Made by a program: the position numbers and the translations under genes. Positions 28,111 to 52,419 of a DNA stretch of 64,000 nt are shown one piece after another (position 1 is the first letter of the stretch; each line of letters starts with the position of its first letter). The DNA lies in the NCBI RefSeq assembly GCF_037860755.1, contig NZ_JBBEOI010000001.1:1-64000 (forward strand), given 5' to 3'. The stretch is from Aquipuribacter hungaricus (GTDB lineage Bacteria; Actinomycetota; Actinomycetes; Actinomycetales; JBBAYJ01). A model generated the notes under the pieces. It saw only the letters and a program-made list of their open reading frames with translations, was not told the DNA's origin and did no database searches.

Positions 28111-28440
28111 TCAGTGGTCGGGGTCGTCGTCGTGGTGGTCCTGGGTCGACTCCTGCGTGTGGGAGCGGGCGTCGGCGACGATGTGGGCGACGTGGTCGTC
28201 GGCCAGGACGTAGGCGGCCTCCCGACCCCGGCGCGTCCTGGTGACCAGGGACGCGTCGCGCAGCACGCGCAGGTGCTGCGACACCACGGGCTGCGGCAGG
28301 TCGAGGGCGTCGACGAGCTCGTGCACGCACAGCTCGCCGTCGGCCAGGAGGCTGATGACGGCGATGCGGACGGGCGAGCCGAGCGCCCGGAAGAGCTCGG
28401 CGACGTCCTCGTGGTCGACGAGGACGCGGGCCGGGCTCAT
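28111..28440 (-). CDS. ArsR/SmtB-family metal-sensing repressor (zinc-type alpha5 site)
   Basis: A 109-residue winged-helix repressor (FRALGSPVRIAVISLLADGELCVHELV, recognition helix PQPVVSQHLRVLRDASLV). The C-terminal helix carries D81, H83, H94 and E97, exactly the D-x-H-x10-H-x2-E pattern of the SmtB alpha5 zinc site. A His/Asp-rich tail (DHHDDDPDH) may add metal binding. The single Cys38 does not make an alpha3 site. I chose ATG at 28440; longer readings add unlike sequence. An inverted repeat TGCACG-AC-CGTGCA lies just upstream, in the gap shared with the divergent nhaA fusion gene, a possible target. Confidence 0.9.
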   Translation of the reverse strand: MSPARVLVDHEDVAELFRALGSPVRIAVISLLADGELCVHELVDALDLPQPVVSQHLRVLRDASLVTRTRRGREAAYVLADDHVAHIVADARSHTQESTQDHHDDDPDH

Positions 28441-28455
28441 GCGGGGGACCTTATG

Positions 28456-28469
28456 TGCACGACCGTGCA
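28456..28469. promoter_or_regulatory. Candidate operator of the zinc-type ArsR protein
   Basis: TGCACG and CGTGCA form a perfect 6-bp dyad around AC, 16 bases upstream of the arsR-like start and on the shared side of the nhaA fusion gene. Confidence 0.45.
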
Positions 28470-28548
28470 GGCCGGACCGGCGTCCGCCCCCGGGCTCGCC
28501 CCTCACGGCGTGGTCCTCGCGGGGGGGCGGCCCTGTAGACCTGACCGA

Positions 28549-28620
28549 ATGACGTCCCACGACCGGCAGCGCGCCGGGACCCCTCCCTGCTGGTCCTCGG
28601 ACGGGACCGCGCGGGCGTGA
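28549..28620 (+). CDS. Possible 23-codon leader peptide before nhaA fusion
   Basis: A short frame begins with ATG at 28549, ends at a TGA that overlaps the GTG of the nhaA fusion (GTGA), and encodes 23 residues. No ribosome-binding site precedes it, but a TAGACC sequence lies 7 bases before the ATG, the distance expected for the -10 of a leaderless mRNA. If transcribed this way, translation of the large protein would be coupled to this peptide. The peptide itself resembles nothing known to me. Confidence 0.3.
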   Translation: MTSHDRQRAGTPPCWSSDGTARA

Positions 28621-31067
28621 GCCAGGACGTCGCCCGCACCCCCGCCGGGCCCGGGGGGCTGCTCGACCGGGCGGCCCCGCTGGGGCGCCGCCTGCGCACC
28701 GAGGCGGGCGGCGCGGGCCTCCTGCTGGCCGCCACCCTGGCCGCGCTGCTGTGGGCGAACTCCCCGTGGGGGTCCACGTACGACGCGTTCTGGCACACCG
28801 AGCTCGCCCTGCGGGTGGGCGGCGCGGAGCTCGCCCTCGACCTGCAGCACTGGGTGAACGACGGCCTCATGACGTTCTTCTTCTTCGTCATCGGGCTGGA
28901 GGTCAAGCGCGAGCTGGTCCTCGGCGAGCTCGCCGACCGGCGCCGCGCCGCGGTCCCCGCGGCGGCGGCCCTGGTCGGGCTGGTCGTCCCCGCCCTGGTC
29001 TACGCGGCCTTCACCCTCGGCGACGAGGCGATCACGGCGTGGGGCGTGGTCATCTCCACCGACACCGCGTTCCTGCTCGGGGTGCTGGCGCTGCTGGGGC
29101 CGGCCTGCCCGCCGCAGCTGCGGGTGTTCCTGCTGGCCCTGGCCATCGCCGACGACGTCGGCGCGCTCACGGTGATCGCGCTCTTCTACACCGAGGACCT
29201 GGCGCTGCTCCCGCTCGCCGGGGCGGCGGTCGGCTTCGGCCTCATGCTCGCCCTGCGCGGGCTCAGGGTCTGGCGCGGGCCGGCGTACCTCGTCGTGGGA
29301 GTCGGGGCGTGGGTGGGGATGTACCTGTCGGGCGTGCACCCCACGCTGCTCGGGGTGGCGGTCGCCCTGGCCACGCCGGCCTACGCCCCGCGGCGCGCCG
29401 AGGTCGCCGACGCCGCCTCGCGCACCCGGGCGTACCTGCAGTCCCCCAGCCCCGAGTACGCCGACGCGGCCCGGCTGTCGATCGCCCGGTCCGTGCCGGT
29501 GGGCGAGCGGCTGCAGCAGCTGTGGCGGCCGTGGACGTCCACCGTCATGGTCCCGCTGTTCGCAATCGCCAACGCCGGCGTGCCCCTCGGCGCGGACAGC
29601 CTGCGCGCCGCCGCCGCCTCCCCGGTGACCCTCGGCGTCGTCGCAGGCCTGGTCGTCGGCAAGCTCCTGGGGATCCTCCTGGGCACCGGGCTCGCGGTCC
29701 GGCTGCGGCTCGGCGACCTCGCGCCCGGCATCGGGGGGCTCTACCTGGCCGGCGGCGCCGCGCTGTCCGGCATCGGGTTCACCATCTCCCTGTTCATCGT
29801 CGACCTCGCGCTGGACGACGACGACCTCGCCGACCAGGCCCGGATCGGCGTGCTCGCCGCCTCGGTCCTCGCCTCGGTGCTCGGCGTCGCGCTGCTGCGC
29901 CTGGCCGCCCGCCGCAGCCCCGCCGCGGACGAGCAGCTGGAGCTCGACCCGCCGGTGGACCCCGGCCGGGACCACGTGCGCGGGCCGGTCGACGCCCCCC
30001 TCACCCTGGTCGAGTACGGCGACTTCGAGTGCCCGTTCTGCGGCCGGGCGACCGGGGCCGTCGACGAGCTGCGCGAGCTCCTCGGCGACCGGTTCCGCTA
30101 CGTCTTCCGCCACTCGCCGCTCACCGACGTCCACCCGCACGCGCAGCTGGCCGCCGAGGCCGCCGAGGCCGCGGGCGCGCAGGGCCGGTTCTGGCAGATG
30201 CACGACCGGCTCTTCGCCTCCCAGGACCGGCTGACGAGCACCGACCTGCTCGACCACGCCGCCGCCCTCGACCTCGACCTGGTGCGCTTCGCCCGCGAGC
30301 TGGGCGCCGGCCGGTACCGCCGCCGGGTCGAGCAGGACGCCGAGTCCGGCCGGGCCAGCGGGGTGGGCGGGACGCCCACCTTCTTCGTCCACGGCCGCCG
30401 GCACACCGGGCCGACGGACGCCGCCACGCTGGCCGCCGCGCTGCTCGACGGGGCCGGCCGCGACGGCGGGCCCGGTACCGGCGACGCGGCCGATGGCGGC
30501 GCACCGGACGGCGCACCGGACGGGGGGCGCACGGGCGGCCTGCCGCCGTCACGGGTGCCGCGCGCCGGCAGCGCGGTCGACGACGACATCGCCCAGGTCC
30601 TGGCCGGCCTGCCCGAGCCCGTGCAGGAGACCCCGGACCGCGGCGGCGACCACCCCCGCCTGGACGACGACCGGCTCGCACGGCTGGCGCAGCACGGCAC
30701 ACGCCGGGCGGTGGCCCGCGGCGACGTCCTCTACCGCCCGGGCGCCCCGTCCTACGACCTCGTCGTCGTCCTGTCCGGGACGGTCGCCGTCATCGGCCAC
30801 GTCGAGGGCGGCCCGCCGGTCGTGCGGGTGCACGGCGCACGGCGGTTCCTCGGCGAGCTCGACCTGCTCGGCGGGCAGCCCGTGACGCGCACGACCGTGG
30901 CCCTGAGCAGCGGCGAGGTGCTCCTGGTGCCCCTGCCCCGGCTGCGCGCTCTGCTGGCCGAGGACGCCGACCTGCGCGAGCTCGTGCTGCGGGCGTACCT
31001 GGTCCGGCGCGCGGTCCGCTTCGAGCTGGCGACCGACCGCGCGCCGGCCGGCCGCGGCGAGGGCTGA
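28617..31067 (+). CDS. nhaA: NhaA Na+/H+ antiporter fused to DsbA-like thioredoxin and cyclic-nucleotide-binding domains
   Basis: An 816-residue three-part protein. Residues 1 to about 440 are a full NhaA antiporter (HWVNDGLMTFFFFVIGLEVKRE; ion-binding pair D179-D180 in AIADDVGAL; ISTDTAFLLGVL; GIGFTISLFI) with about 12 helices. Residues 455-620 are a DsbA-like thioredoxin fold (LVEYGDFECPFCGRA, C472-x-x-C475; cis-Pro loop GGTPTFFV). After a Gly/Asp/Pro-rich linker, residues 682-800 form a CNB domain (DVLYRPGAPSYDLVVVLSGTVAV, FLGELDLLGGQP). NhaA-DsbA fusions are known in actinobacteria; the third domain is unusual. The GTG start overlaps a possible leader frame. It would exchange Na+ for H+ at the membrane, with redox and ligand sensing added in the cytoplasm or at the face of the C-terminus. 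Confidence 0.92.
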   Translation: MSQDVARTPAGPGGLLDRAAPLGRRLRTEAGGAGLLLAATLAALLWANSPWGSTYDAFWHTELALRVGGAELALDLQHWVNDGLMTFFFFVIGLEVKRELVLGELADRRRAAVPAAAALVGLVVPALVYAAFTLGDEAITAWGVVISTDTAFLLGVLALLGPACPPQLRVFLLALAIADDVGALTVIALFYTEDLALLPLAGAAVGFGLMLALRGLRVWRGPAYLVVGVGAWVGMYLSGVHPTLLGVAVALATPAYAPRRAEVADAASRTRAYLQSPSPEYADAARLSIARSVPVGERLQQLWRPWTSTVMVPLFAIANAGVPLGADSLRAAAASPVTLGVVAGLVVGKLLGILLGTGLAVRLRLGDLAPGIGGLYLAGGAALSGIGFTISLFIVDLALDDDDLADQARIGVLAASVLASVLGVALLRLAARRSPAADEQLELDPPVDPGRDHVRGPVDAPLTLVEYGDFECPFCGRATGAVDELRELLGDRFRYVFRHSPLTDVHPHAQLAAEAAEAAGAQGRFWQMHDRLFASQDRLTSTDLLDHAAALDLDLVRFARELGAGRYRRRVEQDAESGRASGVGGTPTFFVHGRRHTGPTDAATLAAALLDGAGRDGGPGTGDAADGGAPDGAPDGGRTGGLPPSRVPRAGSAVDDDIAQVLAGLPEPVQETPDRGGDHPRLDDDRLARLAQHGTRRAVARGDVLYRPGAPSYDLVVVLSGTVAVIGHVEGGPPVVRVHGARRFLGELDLLGGQPVTRTTVALSSGEVLLVPLPRLRALLAEDADLRELVLRAYLVRRAVRFELATDRAPAGRGEG

Positions 31068-48708: not shown

Positions 48709-49671
48709 GTGGCCGCGGACGAGGAACGGGACGGCGTCCGGCTGAGCAGCCTGGACTCCCCGCTGGGCGACGGGCTGGACGTGACCAAGCGGGACCTGGT
48801 CGACCACCTCGACGCCTTCGCCGACCGGCTCGTGCCGCTGCTCGCGGGCCGTCCGCTGACCGTCACGCGGGTGCGGCCGGGTGCGGCGCCGTTCGTCCAG
48901 CGCGACGTGCCGAAGGGGGCGCCCGACTGGGTGCGCACCGTGGCCACGTGGTCCGACCGGGCCCGGCGCGAGGTGCACCAGGTCCTGGTCGAGGACCGCC
49001 GCACCCTGCTCTGGCTGGGCAACCAGCGGGCGGTGGAGCTCCACGTGCCGTTCAGCCGGGTGGGGGCGGACGAGCCGACCGGCCTGGTGCTCGACCTCGA
49101 CCCGCCGGACGGCGCCTCCTTCGACGCGGTGGTCGCCACCGCGCTGCTGTGCCGCCGGGCGCTCGCCGACGCCGGCCTGGAGGCGGCGGTGAAGACCAGC
49201 GGGGCCACCGGCCTGCACGTCGTCGTCCCCGTGCACGGCTCGTCGGCCGAGGACGTCGCCGCCGCGACCCGTGCCCTGGCCGCCCGCACCGCGGCGCTGG
49301 ACCCGGACATCGCCACGACCGCGTACGTGGTGGCCGACCGGGGCGGCCGGGTGTTCGTCGACTCCACCCGGTCGGGCCGCGGCACGGTCGCCGCGGCCTA
49401 CAGCCCCCGCGTCCGCCCCGGGCTGCCGGTCTCGGCGCCGGTCGGCTGGGAGCAGCTGGCCGACGTCCTGCCCGGCGACGTCACCGTCCGGACGGCCGTC
49501 GCCCGGTTCGGCACCGCGGACCCCTGGGCCGCGGCCCTGCCGGAGCCGCAGGAGCTGCCGGCCGACCTGGTCGCCGAGGGCCACGGCATCCCGGTCGCCC
49601 GGGTGCAGGCCATGCACGAGGGGAAGCGCCGCGCCCGTGCCCGGGCCGCGGAGGAGCAGCCCCCGACCTGA
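48709..49671 (+). CDS. Stand-alone LigD polymerase domain (NHEJ-type PrimPol)
   Basis: A 320-residue member of the archaeo-eukaryotic primase superfamily, the polymerase domain of bacterial DNA ligase D. The catalytic DLDPP carries D129 and D131. KTSGATGLHVVVPV binds nucleotide, and VFVDSTRSGRGTVAAAYSPR supplies the third acidic residue and template contacts. No ligase or nuclease domain follows, and no Ku gene is in the window. It would fill or extend ends during non-homologous end joining with ribonucleotide preference. The start is GTG at 48709; there is no good ribosome-binding site. Confidence 0.9.
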   Translation: MAADEERDGVRLSSLDSPLGDGLDVTKRDLVDHLDAFADRLVPLLAGRPLTVTRVRPGAAPFVQRDVPKGAPDWVRTVATWSDRARREVHQVLVEDRRTLLWLGNQRAVELHVPFSRVGADEPTGLVLDLDPPDGASFDAVVATALLCRRALADAGLEAAVKTSGATGLHVVVPVHGSSAEDVAAATRALAARTAALDPDIATTAYVVADRGGRVFVDSTRSGRGTVAAAYSPRVRPGLPVSAPVGWEQLADVLPGDVTVRTAVARFGTADPWAAALPEPQELPADLVAEGHGIPVARVQAMHEGKRRARARAAEEQPPT

Positions 49672-49711
49672 CCGCTGCCCGACGACCGGGCCCGCGTGCT
49701 TGTGTGTCCCC

Positions 49712-50266
49712 GTGCAGAGGTGGTGGACGCGGACGGGCCCCCGGGCCGCCCGCGTCCTCGACGCCGTGCGGCCGCACGTCGACCTGGTCCTGGTGGTCGT
49801 GGTGACGGTGGCGGCCTTCGCGCCGCCCCTGGCGGGGCGGGGCACCCTGCTCGGCTGGGAGGAACCCGTGCGGGACCTCGACGTCCTGGCCGTCGTCCTG
49901 GTGCTGGGCCACTCCCTCCCGCTCGCCCTCCGGACGCGGTCCCCGGGCTGGTGCCTGCTGCTGGTCTCGGTCTCGGCGTCCGTCTACCAGTGCCTCGGGT
50001 ACCGGCAGACCGTCGCGAGCATCGCGGTGTACCTGGCCCTGTACACCGTCGGGTACCGGCAGCGCCGGCACCGGGTGCTCACGGCGGCGGCCTGGCTGCT
50101 GGGCTACGCCGCCCTGTGCCTCACGCTGCTCCGGCTCGGCTCCCCCGTCCCGCCCGTGGAGCTGGTCGAGTTCCTCGCCCTGCCGGTCGGGTGCTGGCTG
50201 GCCGGGGCCCTGGCGGGCGCCGGGCTGGCCCAGCACAGCTGGCCGCAGAGCTCGCGGGACAGCTGA
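49712..50266 (+). pseudogene. Truncated sensor histidine kinase (membrane sensor part only)
   Basis: A 184-residue product made only of the membrane sensor part of a NarL-type kinase (VLDAVRPHVDLVLVVVVTVAAFAPPLAG; five or six helices; TVGYRQRRHRVLTAAAWLLGYAAL). After ALAGAGLAQHS the frame enters sequence that belongs, in another frame, to a thioredoxin, and ends 21 bases later. The histidine, N and G boxes are absent. This is best explained by a deletion that removed the kinase catalytic region together with the front of the neighbouring thioredoxin gene. The start is GTG at 49712. Confidence 0.75.
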
Positions 50267-50484
50267 AGCTGGTCAAGGTCGACGCGGACCTCTCGCCGGA
50301 GGTGAGCCGCCGCTTCGAGGTCCAGGCGATCCCCACACTGGTCCTCATGCACCACGGCCAGGTGGTCGCCACGCAGACCGGCGCCGCCCCCGTGAGCACC
50401 CTGCGGTCGTGGCTGACCGAGCACCTGCCTCAGCCGGACGCCACCGGGGCGGACGCCCCTTGGACCGGGGAGGACCGGCGATGA
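50236..50484 (+). pseudogene. Thioredoxin C-terminal half (N-terminus deleted)
   Basis: Reading from about 50239, LAAELAGQLKLVKVDADLS, then RRFEVQAIPTLVLMHHGQVVATQ and STLRSWLTEHL, gives the second half of a thioredoxin, including the cis-Pro loop (IPT). The first beta-alpha-beta unit and the CGPC active site are missing, and no start codon is available. Its stop overlaps the ATG of the UBP gene (ATGA), as an intact thioredoxin gene would in this operon. Confidence 0.8.
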
Positions 50485-50759
50485 CCTCGGTCCCCGGTCG
50501 GGCGGTCCCGGACCCCCACCTCGCGCTGGTCCGGCCGGTAGGGCCGCCCCGGACGGCGGGCTGCGAGGGGTGCCTGCGGCTCGGCACGCCGTGGGTGCAC
50601 CTGCGGCAGTGCCTGACCTGCGGCGAGGTCGTCTGCTGCGACTCCTCCCCCATGCGCCACGCCCGCGCCCACGCCGCCACGACGAGGCACGTCGTCGTGC
50701 GCTCGATCGAGCCCGGTGAGAGCTGGAGGTGGTGCTATGCCGACGAGCAGTTCGTCTGA
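50481..50759 (+). CDS. UBP-type zinc finger protein
   Basis: A 92-residue protein consisting of a ZnF-UBP domain. Cysteine and histidine ligands are visible in GCEGCLRLGTPWVHLRQCLTCGEVVCCDSSPMRHARAHA, with the spacing C-x2-C, C-x2-C, C-C, H-x3-H. In eukaryotes this fold binds the ubiquitin C-terminus; in bacteria it occurs as a small stand-alone protein, often beside CNB-thioredoxin-reductase genes as here. The ATG at 50481 overlaps the thioredoxin stop, and its 3' end overlaps the start of the next gene by 23 bases. Confidence 0.88.
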   Translation: MTSVPGRAVPDPHLALVRPVGPPRTAGCEGCLRLGTPWVHLRQCLTCGEVVCCDSSPMRHARAHAATTRHVVVRSIEPGESWRWCYADEQFV

Positions 50760-52419
50760 GCCCGAGGTCCCGGACCTGCCCGAGACCCCCGACACCACCG
50801 GCGCCTACCCCCGCCTCACCGAGGAGCAGGTCCTGTTCCTCGTGCGCTACGGCCAGCGGAAGCGGCTGGGGAAGGGGACCACGTTGTTCTGCGAGGGTGA
50901 CCGCGACTGCGGCCTGTTCCTGCTGCTGGACGGCAGGGTCCAGGTGGGCCAGGAGGACCACCAGGAGGGCCGGTCACGAGTCATCGCGGTCCACGGACCG
51001 GGGCGTCTCGTGGGCGACCTGTCGATGCTGACCGGCCAGGTCGTGTTCGTCACCGCCGTCGCCCAGACCGACGTCGAGGTCCTGGAGGTCCCCTTCGACC
51101 GGCTCACGGAGGCGGTCACCCACGACCGGGCGCTGGGGGACCTGATCCTGCGGGCCTTCATCCTGCGACGTCACATCCACGCCGACCTCGGCGCCGGGCT
51201 CCGGATCATCGGCTCCCGCTACTCGCCCAGCACCCGGCGCCCGAGGGACTTCGCGAGCCGCAACCGCGTCCCGTACCGCTGGGACGACCTAGAGGACGAT
51301 CCCGAGGCCGAGGCGACCCTGCGGGCGTTCGACGTCTCACCCGCCCAGACCCCTGTCGTCATCTGGAAGGGGCGGGCGGTCCTGCGCAACCCCAGCATCA
51401 CGGAGCTGGCCGCCCTCCTGGGGCTGCGGCAGGAGGCACCGCCTCGCGACGCCTACGACGTCGTGGTGGTCGGTGCGGGCCCGGCCGGTCTCGCCGCTGC
51501 CGTGTCGGCCGCCTCCGAAGGGCTCTCGACGGTCGTGCTGGACGCGATCGCGACGGGAGGCCAGGCGGGGACCTCGTCCCAGATCGAGAACTACCTCGGC
51601 TTCCCGGCCGGCATCTCGGGCGCCGAGCTCGCCGACCGGGCGGTCGTCCAGGCCCGCAAGTTCGGCGCCTCGTTCACGATCCCCGGCGAGGTGGGGTCGC
51701 TCGACCCCGTCGACGGCCACTTCGTCGTCGGGCTGACCGACGGCACCCAGGTGGAAGCGCACACCGTGGTGCTCGCGACCGGTGTACGGTACCGCCGCCT
51801 CGAGGTCCCCGGCATGGACCGGCTCGAGGGGCCCAGCGTCTACTACGCCGCCACCGAGTTCGAGGCACGGCTCTGCCGCGGCGACCCGGTGACGGTCGTC
51901 GGCGGCGGGAACTCGGCCGGGCAGGCGGCCCTGTTCCTGGCCCGGAACGCAGCCGGGGTGGACCTCGTCGTCCGCCACGACGACCTGGACCGCGACATGT
52001 CCCGCTACCTGGCGGAACGGGTCGTCGCGGCCCCACGGGTACAGCTGTGGCGCAGCTGCGAGGTCTCCGAGCTGCACGGCGACCTCGGGCTCCAGGAGGT
52101 CGTCGTCCGCAACCTGCGGACGGGCGAGTGCCGACCCCTCGCCTCGACAGCGCTCTTCGTCCTCATCGGGTCCGAACCCCGCACCCGGTGGCTGGAGGGC
52201 GTGATCGCGCTCGACGACAGGGGGTTCGTGCTGACCGGTGGCGACCGGGGTGAGGCCGACCAGGATGGCGCCGCCGTGTTCGAGACCGCGACCCCGGGCG
52301 TCTTCGCGGTGGGGGACGTGCGCAGCGGCTCGGTGAAGCGGGTGGCCTCCGCCGTCGGCGAGGGCTCCATCGCCGTGCGCCTGGTGTACGAGCACCTCGT
52401 CCGGACCGGTCGACGGTGA
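50737..52419 (+). CDS. CNB domain-thioredoxin reductase-like FAD oxidoreductase
   Basis: A 560-residue protein. The cyclic-nucleotide-binding-like domain spans about residues 30-160 (LFCEGDRDCGLFLLLDGRVQVG, GRLVGDLSMLTGQ). A glutaredoxin/GST-like linker follows (residues 160-235, RYSPSTRRPRDF to NPSITELAALLGL). The pyridine nucleotide-disulfide fold then starts with VVVVGAGPAGLAAAVSAA near residue 243 (FAD), VVGGGNSAGQAALFLARN near 388 (NADPH) and VFAVGDVRSGSVKRVASAVGEG. The CxxC of thioredoxin reductases is replaced (YYAATEFEARLC near 369-380), so it cannot reduce thioredoxin by the standard dithiol route. GGAGG precedes the ATG at 50737. Confidence 0.93.
   Translation: MPTSSSSEPEVPDLPETPDTTGAYPRLTEEQVLFLVRYGQRKRLGKGTTLFCEGDRDCGLFLLLDGRVQVGQEDHQEGRSRVIAVHGPGRLVGDLSMLTGQVVFVTAVAQTDVEVLEVPFDRLTEAVTHDRALGDLILRAFILRRHIHADLGAGLRIIGSRYSPSTRRPRDFASRNRVPYRWDDLEDDPEAEATLRAFDVSPAQTPVVIWKGRAVLRNPSITELAALLGLRQEAPPRDAYDVVVVGAGPAGLAAAVSAASEGLSTVVLDAIATGGQAGTSSQIENYLGFPAGISGAELADRAVVQARKFGASFTIPGEVGSLDPVDGHFVVGLTDGTQVEAHTVVLATGVRYRRLEVPGMDRLEGPSVYYAATEFEARLCRGDPVTVVGGGNSAGQAALFLARNAAGVDLVVRHDDLDRDMSRYLAERVVAAPRVQLWRSCEVSELHGDLGLQEVVVRNLRTGECRPLASTALFVLIGSEPRTRWLEGVIALDDRGFVLTGGDRGEADQDGAAVFETATPGVFAVGDVRSGSVKRVASAVGEGSIAVRLVYEHLVRTGRR

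Follow-up and report, generated by a model that had tools for sequence, protein, structure and literature searches.

How does a membrane antiporter come to end in a cyclic-nucleotide-binding (CNB) fold, and what would such a domain do for ion exchange? The question is raised by a gene in the 64,000-nucleotide stretch of Aquipuribacter hungaricus DNA analysed here (hereafter, the window), which comes from a draft genome of 547 contigs. A first-pass annotation, made from the letters of the window, had read this gene as a single 816-residue frame joining a complete NhaA to a CPFC-containing thioredoxin fold and then to a CNB fold, and had proposed that the third domain would make Na+/H+ exchange responsive to redox state and to a nucleotide or other ligand.

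The three-domain frame is borne out by the open reading frame itself, by Pfam, by the coding pattern and by relatives. Positions 28617 to 31067 of the forward strand form an uninterrupted frame with a GTG start and zero internal stops, encoding 816 aa, within which all Pfam matches exceed their gathering cut-offs: Na_H_antiport_1 at residues 26-427 (28692..29897, E=4.7e-128), Thioredoxin_4 at residues 451-609 (29967..30443, E=3.4e-18), with DSBA overlying it at 463-609 (E=3.3e-12), and cNMP_binding at residues 697-783 (E=2e-12). Third-position GC is 0.97-1.0 in the NhaA, DsbA and CNB parts and 0.91 in the linker, so that, by GC at each codon position, the coding pattern is kept across all three domains. 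In an AlphaFold model of the whole protein (pLDDT 87, pTM 0.72), values of pLDDT below 50 are confined to residues 1-12, 617-650 and 805-816; the second of these stretches belongs to a linker (residues 617-664, 30465..30608) that is largely disordered in the model, and beyond it lie an 'ETPD' leader and the CNB-like domain (residues 665-816, 30609..31064; modelled CNB, 684-806). The suspicion that the CNB segment is a separate gene, set apart by a missed frameshift or an overlooked gene boundary, is ruled out because the domains are in frame and because six Geodermatophilus genomes contain the identical layout, unbroken.

By residues and by fold, the antiporter core is intact, and Na+/H+ exchange is predicted. 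The protein matches TIGR00773 at 311.5 bits (cut-off 254), and D179, D180 and K349 of its NhaA domain are invariant in an alignment of 37 rows; the ion-binding residues of E. coli NhaA, an Asp-Asp pair plus a Lys, are D163, D164 and K300. Foldseek aligns the NhaA domain with NhaA 7S24 at a TM of 0.92, and the groups of matches that follow are SLC9C1 and SOS1, both of them eukaryotic Na+/H+ exchangers whose CNB domains are C-terminal. In the DsbA-like domain, which matches the fold of B. subtilis BdbD (3EU4), the cysteines of the CPFC site (C472 and C475; 30030-30041) are at least 90% conserved among 37 homologues and the cis-proline, P587, is invariant. Homology to NhaA and the modelled helices both place the C-terminus of the antiporter in the cytoplasm; since the C-terminus of E. 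coli NhaA is cytoplasmic (PMC13408996), both added domains would lie in the cytosol.

Fusions of NhaA to a DsbA-like domain had been described as known in actinobacteria, and they are indeed common among the sampled actinomycetes: an NhaA match runs on through the DsbA domain in 19 of 99 genomes of the order sample (fused proteins counted) and in 47 of 198 genomes of the class sample. The CNB-bearing form is rare. We found it in the window, in six Geodermatophilus genomes (whose copies are 65-71% identical), in G251 (L096), which belongs to another family, and, degraded, in G072 (L092). This last copy (L092:1492-3454) is missing the first ~136 NhaA residues and the DsbA part with CPFC, its frames are shifted, and it is either a pseudogene or an assembly error. 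At G059:C12:13773-16708, NhaA adjoins a DsbA-like gene on the opposite strand, the two being unfused. Presence of the tail cannot be scored in the nearest named match, an uncultured Quadrisphaera MAG with 79-80% identity, because its contig ends ahead of the CNB position. The gene is absent from the same-genus genomes G001 and G002, each of which yields a distant NhaA match only. No plasmid record covered 80% of the antiporter protein, and no viral carriage of the tail module was found. Public genomes already include the Geodermatophilus genes; the literature searched, which omits most subscription journals, held no relevant description of NhaA-DsbA or NhaA-CNB proteins or of the three-domain architecture.

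The antiporter tail belongs to a larger module that comprises a leader, a CNB and a cysteine-less thioredoxin fold. Antiporters of the relatives extend ~75 aa past the CNB, into a domain that the window copy lacks, and the CNB plus this segment align end to end, from an LPETPD leader to a VLRNPS motif, with the N-terminal half of a flavoprotein encoded elsewhere in the window (50716..52419, forward strand; module match at 50770-51423, E=2.7e-100 in the module profile search). When the complete module of the homologue L008 is modelled (pLDDT 90), the CNB part, which matches the CRP family, is followed by a beta-alpha-beta-alpha-beta-beta-alpha thioredoxin-like fold, and this segment contains no conserved cysteine in the module alignment. 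The window antiporter has retained leader and CNB, and its homologues in Geodermatophilus and G251 have the thioredoxin-fold domain as well. Profile searches with the module spanned overlapping samples of 198 genomes from the class, 99 from the order and 198 from the phylum; among the loci examined, strong matches (E < about 1e-22) were limited to proteins with CNB, thioredoxin-fold and TrxR-like parts and to the NhaA proteins listed above. The likeness that had been noticed between the end of the antiporter CNB (ELVLRAYLVRR) and that of the flavoprotein (DLILRAFILRR) is genuine, in that all or almost all of 32 modules keep the RR pair; the two window modules are 35% identical.

The first-pass annotation had gone further, suggesting a common module attached to two proteins within one genome neighbourhood. 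The module family and the alignment support a common module, but the module tree speaks against duplication in the neighbourhood: the antiporter modules of the window, G072 and Geodermatophilus group together (support 99/98) in a clade apart from the flavoprotein modules, with G072's as the closest to that of the window antiporter. The tree thereby rules out that the CNB was recently copied from one of these window genes to the other, and because the antiporter clade is separate, the two CNBs are old relatives, divided by an ancient split, and not local copies.

The ancestry of the fusion is less clear-cut. A single grouping of the CNB-bearing proteins is rejected on the NhaA+DsbA tree (AU p=2e-44), a result driven by NhaA, for which the grouping of CNB-bearing domains is rejected by itself (p=2e-8); the G251 antiporter has an NhaA of Streptomyces type. 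The suggestion of two fusions is weakened because neither the DsbA part (single origin, p=0.285 with L013 and 0.046 without it) nor the module (p=0.41) clearly rejects one origin. A linker motif, LPxLGxRR, is common to the CNB-bearing antiporters and reads VPVIGRLR in G251, whose DsbA domain is about equally identical to both groups. Judging from these comparisons, the G251 protein would reflect either a single fusion whose tail was later moved, as a cassette, onto another NhaA, or two separate fusions.

The other carrier of the module has the FAD/NAD(P) domains of a thioredoxin-reductase (TrxR)-like flavoprotein by Pfam, and the first-pass annotation had labelled it, from 50737, a reductase. 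A related CNB-TrxR has been reported to reduce thioredoxin (PMC6544261). That label is nevertheless hard to maintain, as the CxxC of true thioredoxin reductases was present in none of the 14 CNB-TrxR-like proteins checked (that of the window, 50716-52419, and loci L120-L141), which have YAATxxEAxxC instead. 'Thioredoxin reductase' seems a doubtful name for this family; because its members lack CxxC, they may not be thiol reductases, and direct electron transfer from them to the CPFC site of the antiporter is doubtful.

Several genes surround these two. A zf-UBP zinc-finger protein (50409..50759, forward strand) lies directly upstream of the CNB-flavoprotein gene and overlaps it, and a zf-UBP reading frame also stands directly ahead of the CNB-TrxR-like gene in G163 (L153:2-475). 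At 49271-50484 on the forward strand, just ahead of the CNB-flavoprotein, a membrane sensor-kinase-like frame (49271-50266) overlaps a reading frame that matches the C-terminal half of thioredoxin only (profile positions 42-102, WCxxC absent), and the arrangement resembles a chimera or a broken gene. An ArsR/SmtB-type metalloregulator (28111..28560, reverse strand; NF033788, E=1e-26) lies divergent from the antiporter gene; its C-terminal D-x-H-x10-H-x2-E pattern resembles, by sequence, that of zinc-sensing SmtB/CzrA. This regulator might, or might not, govern the antiporter; neighbourhood comparison found no homologue of it beside the Geodermatophilus antiporters, and no conserved neighbourhood of the antiporter was found beyond closely related Geodermatophilus.

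Whether the tail senses a nucleotide turns on its phosphate-binding cassette. In CRP and PKA, an Arg of this cassette contacts the cyclic phosphate. The antiporter has the CNB fold, both by Pfam and by the match of the L008 model to the CRP family, and its degenerate cassette GELDLLGGQPVTRTTV (residues 746-761, 30852..30899) retains the Glu and has Val756 at the position of the Arg, which is absent from 31 of the 32 aligned modules and present in one. Replacing this Arg in SLC9C1 abolishes the effect of cAMP (PMC6052114), and in SOS1, where the position is occupied by Tyr, the authors conclude that cyclic nucleotide binding is precluded (PMC10372031). Because the cassette Arg is missing, the proposed response of ion exchange to a nucleotide is unsupported, and the CNB-like domain of the antiporter probably does not bind nucleotides.

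What we infer instead, with a probability of about 0.4, is an NhaA-type Na+/H+ antiporter whose cytoplasmic tail serves in regulation or docking and is tied to the CNB-flavoprotein redox system. Given the cytoplasmic C-terminus of NhaA, the DsbA-like domain would be a cytosolic thiol module rather than an oxidase working outside the cytoplasm. The CNB-like domain would bind no cyclic nucleotide and, like the Arg-less domain of SOS1, might function in protein-protein docking or autoinhibition; the tail would thus subject the antiporter to a partner or signal that also acts on CNB-flavoproteins, and the outcome would be that Na+/H+ exchange tracks the cellular NAD(P)H/thiol state.

A link to CNB-flavoproteins is favoured by the shared module together with the co-occurrence and close linkage of unfused genes. 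NhaA-DsbA proteins are commoner than expected in module-bearing genomes, both in the class sample (11/25, p=0.014) and in the order sample (6/7, p=1.5e-4), and unfused NhaA-DsbA and module genes are no more than 15 kb apart in 3 of 10 genomes (about 2 kb in G165 and G214, about 15 kb in G163; binomial p about 1e-4). Because these tests were post hoc and made on related genomes, we treat co-occurrence and linkage as leads, not proof. The absence of the gene from G001 and G002 counts against a regulatory tail. A stronger version, in which a non-nucleotide CNB module couples the antiporter to CNB-flavoproteins such that NAD(P)H/thiol state sets exchange directly, and in which a DsbA-CNB-Trx cassette may move between NhaAs, is tentative and, on balance, doubtful.

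Next in probability, and unlikely, is that the CNB-like domain is structural, aiding dimer stabilisation, folding or targeting and sensing nothing, with regulation, if any, left to the DsbA-like domain alone. Both NhaA and the CRP-type CNB proteins form dimers, and the degenerate ligand cassette and the long disordered linker would each be in keeping with such a task; but a linker with 34 disordered residues would make a poor rigid clamp, and the presence of the module on a redox flavoprotein suggests a more specific role. We consider it more unlikely still that, as CRP/FNR relatives often do, the tail recognises some small molecule that is neither cAMP nor cGMP, and that this ligand gates both carriers of the module. 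CRP/FNR proteins have switched ligand many times, and the flavoprotein cassettes share a conserved replacement motif, GELxLLxGQxxFxTA, that does not have the appearance of random decay; in the antiporter copies, however, the motif is weaker, as GELDLFSDHPVS and GGLGTLRGEAMF show.

A passenger tail, fixed by chance with the fusion and decaying in the window lineage, we rank lower again, yet it is a serious rival because NhaA and DsbA both evolve clearly more slowly than the CNB. The linker is the fastest part of all, and between the window protein and L008 the CNB is 48% identical, against 78% for NhaA. The window copy is without the last domain of the module, of which no remnant was found 3' of the antiporter stop (the single weak match there lying within the isochorismatase gene on the other strand), and the degraded copy in G072 would fit such decay as well. 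Since the CNB is the faster part and the thioredoxin-like domain is missing in the window copy, the tail is possibly under relaxed constraint. Against this, six Geodermatophilus genomes keep the tail with its reading frame, its folds and a dN/dS below 1: values for the CNB are 0.22-0.58 in most Geodermatophilus pairs and 0.79 in one pair (0.1-0.3 for NhaA), indicating, at the sequence level, purifying selection on the CNB in most pairs. The tail also occurs on a different NhaA in G251. Finally, a true cyclic-nucleotide-gated antiporter on the SLC9C1 model is highly improbable, for although the cNMP_binding match exceeds its cut-off, SLC9C1 structures are among the fold matches and the cassette Glu is retained, the Arg is replaced by Val756 here and missing in 31/32 modules, and a Pfam scan of the antiporter found no voltage-sensor domain.

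Should the preferred reading, a tail tied to the CNB-flavoprotein redox system, be correct, the antiporter would be a separately evolved bacterial counterpart of SOS1 and SLC9C1, the CNB-bearing eukaryotic Na+/H+ exchangers, and would, in soil actinomycetes, couple salt and pH homeostasis to the redox state. The antiporter is also a second carrier, one with an assayable activity, of an unexplained CNB module from a widespread family of TrxR-like flavoproteins.

Comparison with known systems shows how its parts are shared. E. coli NhaA is alike in fold, in its catalytic Asp pair and in its Lys, but has no extra cytoplasmic domains. The actinomycete NhaA-DsbA fusions have the identical order of NhaA core and CPxC thioredoxin fold, at about 45-67% identity over 600 residues, and, unlike the 816-aa antiporter, stop after the thioredoxin domain, with no CNB. 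With the CNB-TrxR-like flavoproteins, among them ATII-TrxR (PMC6544261), whose Pfam architecture is identical to that of 50716-52419, the antiporter family has in common the leader, CNB and cysteine-less thioredoxin-fold module and its Arg-less cassette; in those proteins the module stands at the N-terminus, ahead of the FAD/NAD(P) domains, whereas in the antiporter it sits at the C-terminus of a membrane transporter and is missing its last domain. SLC9C1, the sperm Na+/H+ exchanger, is alike as an exchanger with a C-terminal CNB domain and as a fold match, but it is eukaryotic and possesses a voltage sensor and, with Arg1053, a functional cAMP site (PMC6052114), whereas the antiporter has neither voltage sensor nor cassette Arg. 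The nearest working counterpart of the antiporter tail is plant SOS1 (PMC10372031), a Na+/H+ antiporter and fold match with a cytoplasmic C-terminal CNB-like domain that likewise lacks the cassette Arg; SOS1 belongs to another antiporter family (13 TM), has a far larger tail and no thioredoxin domain, and the likeness is convergent.
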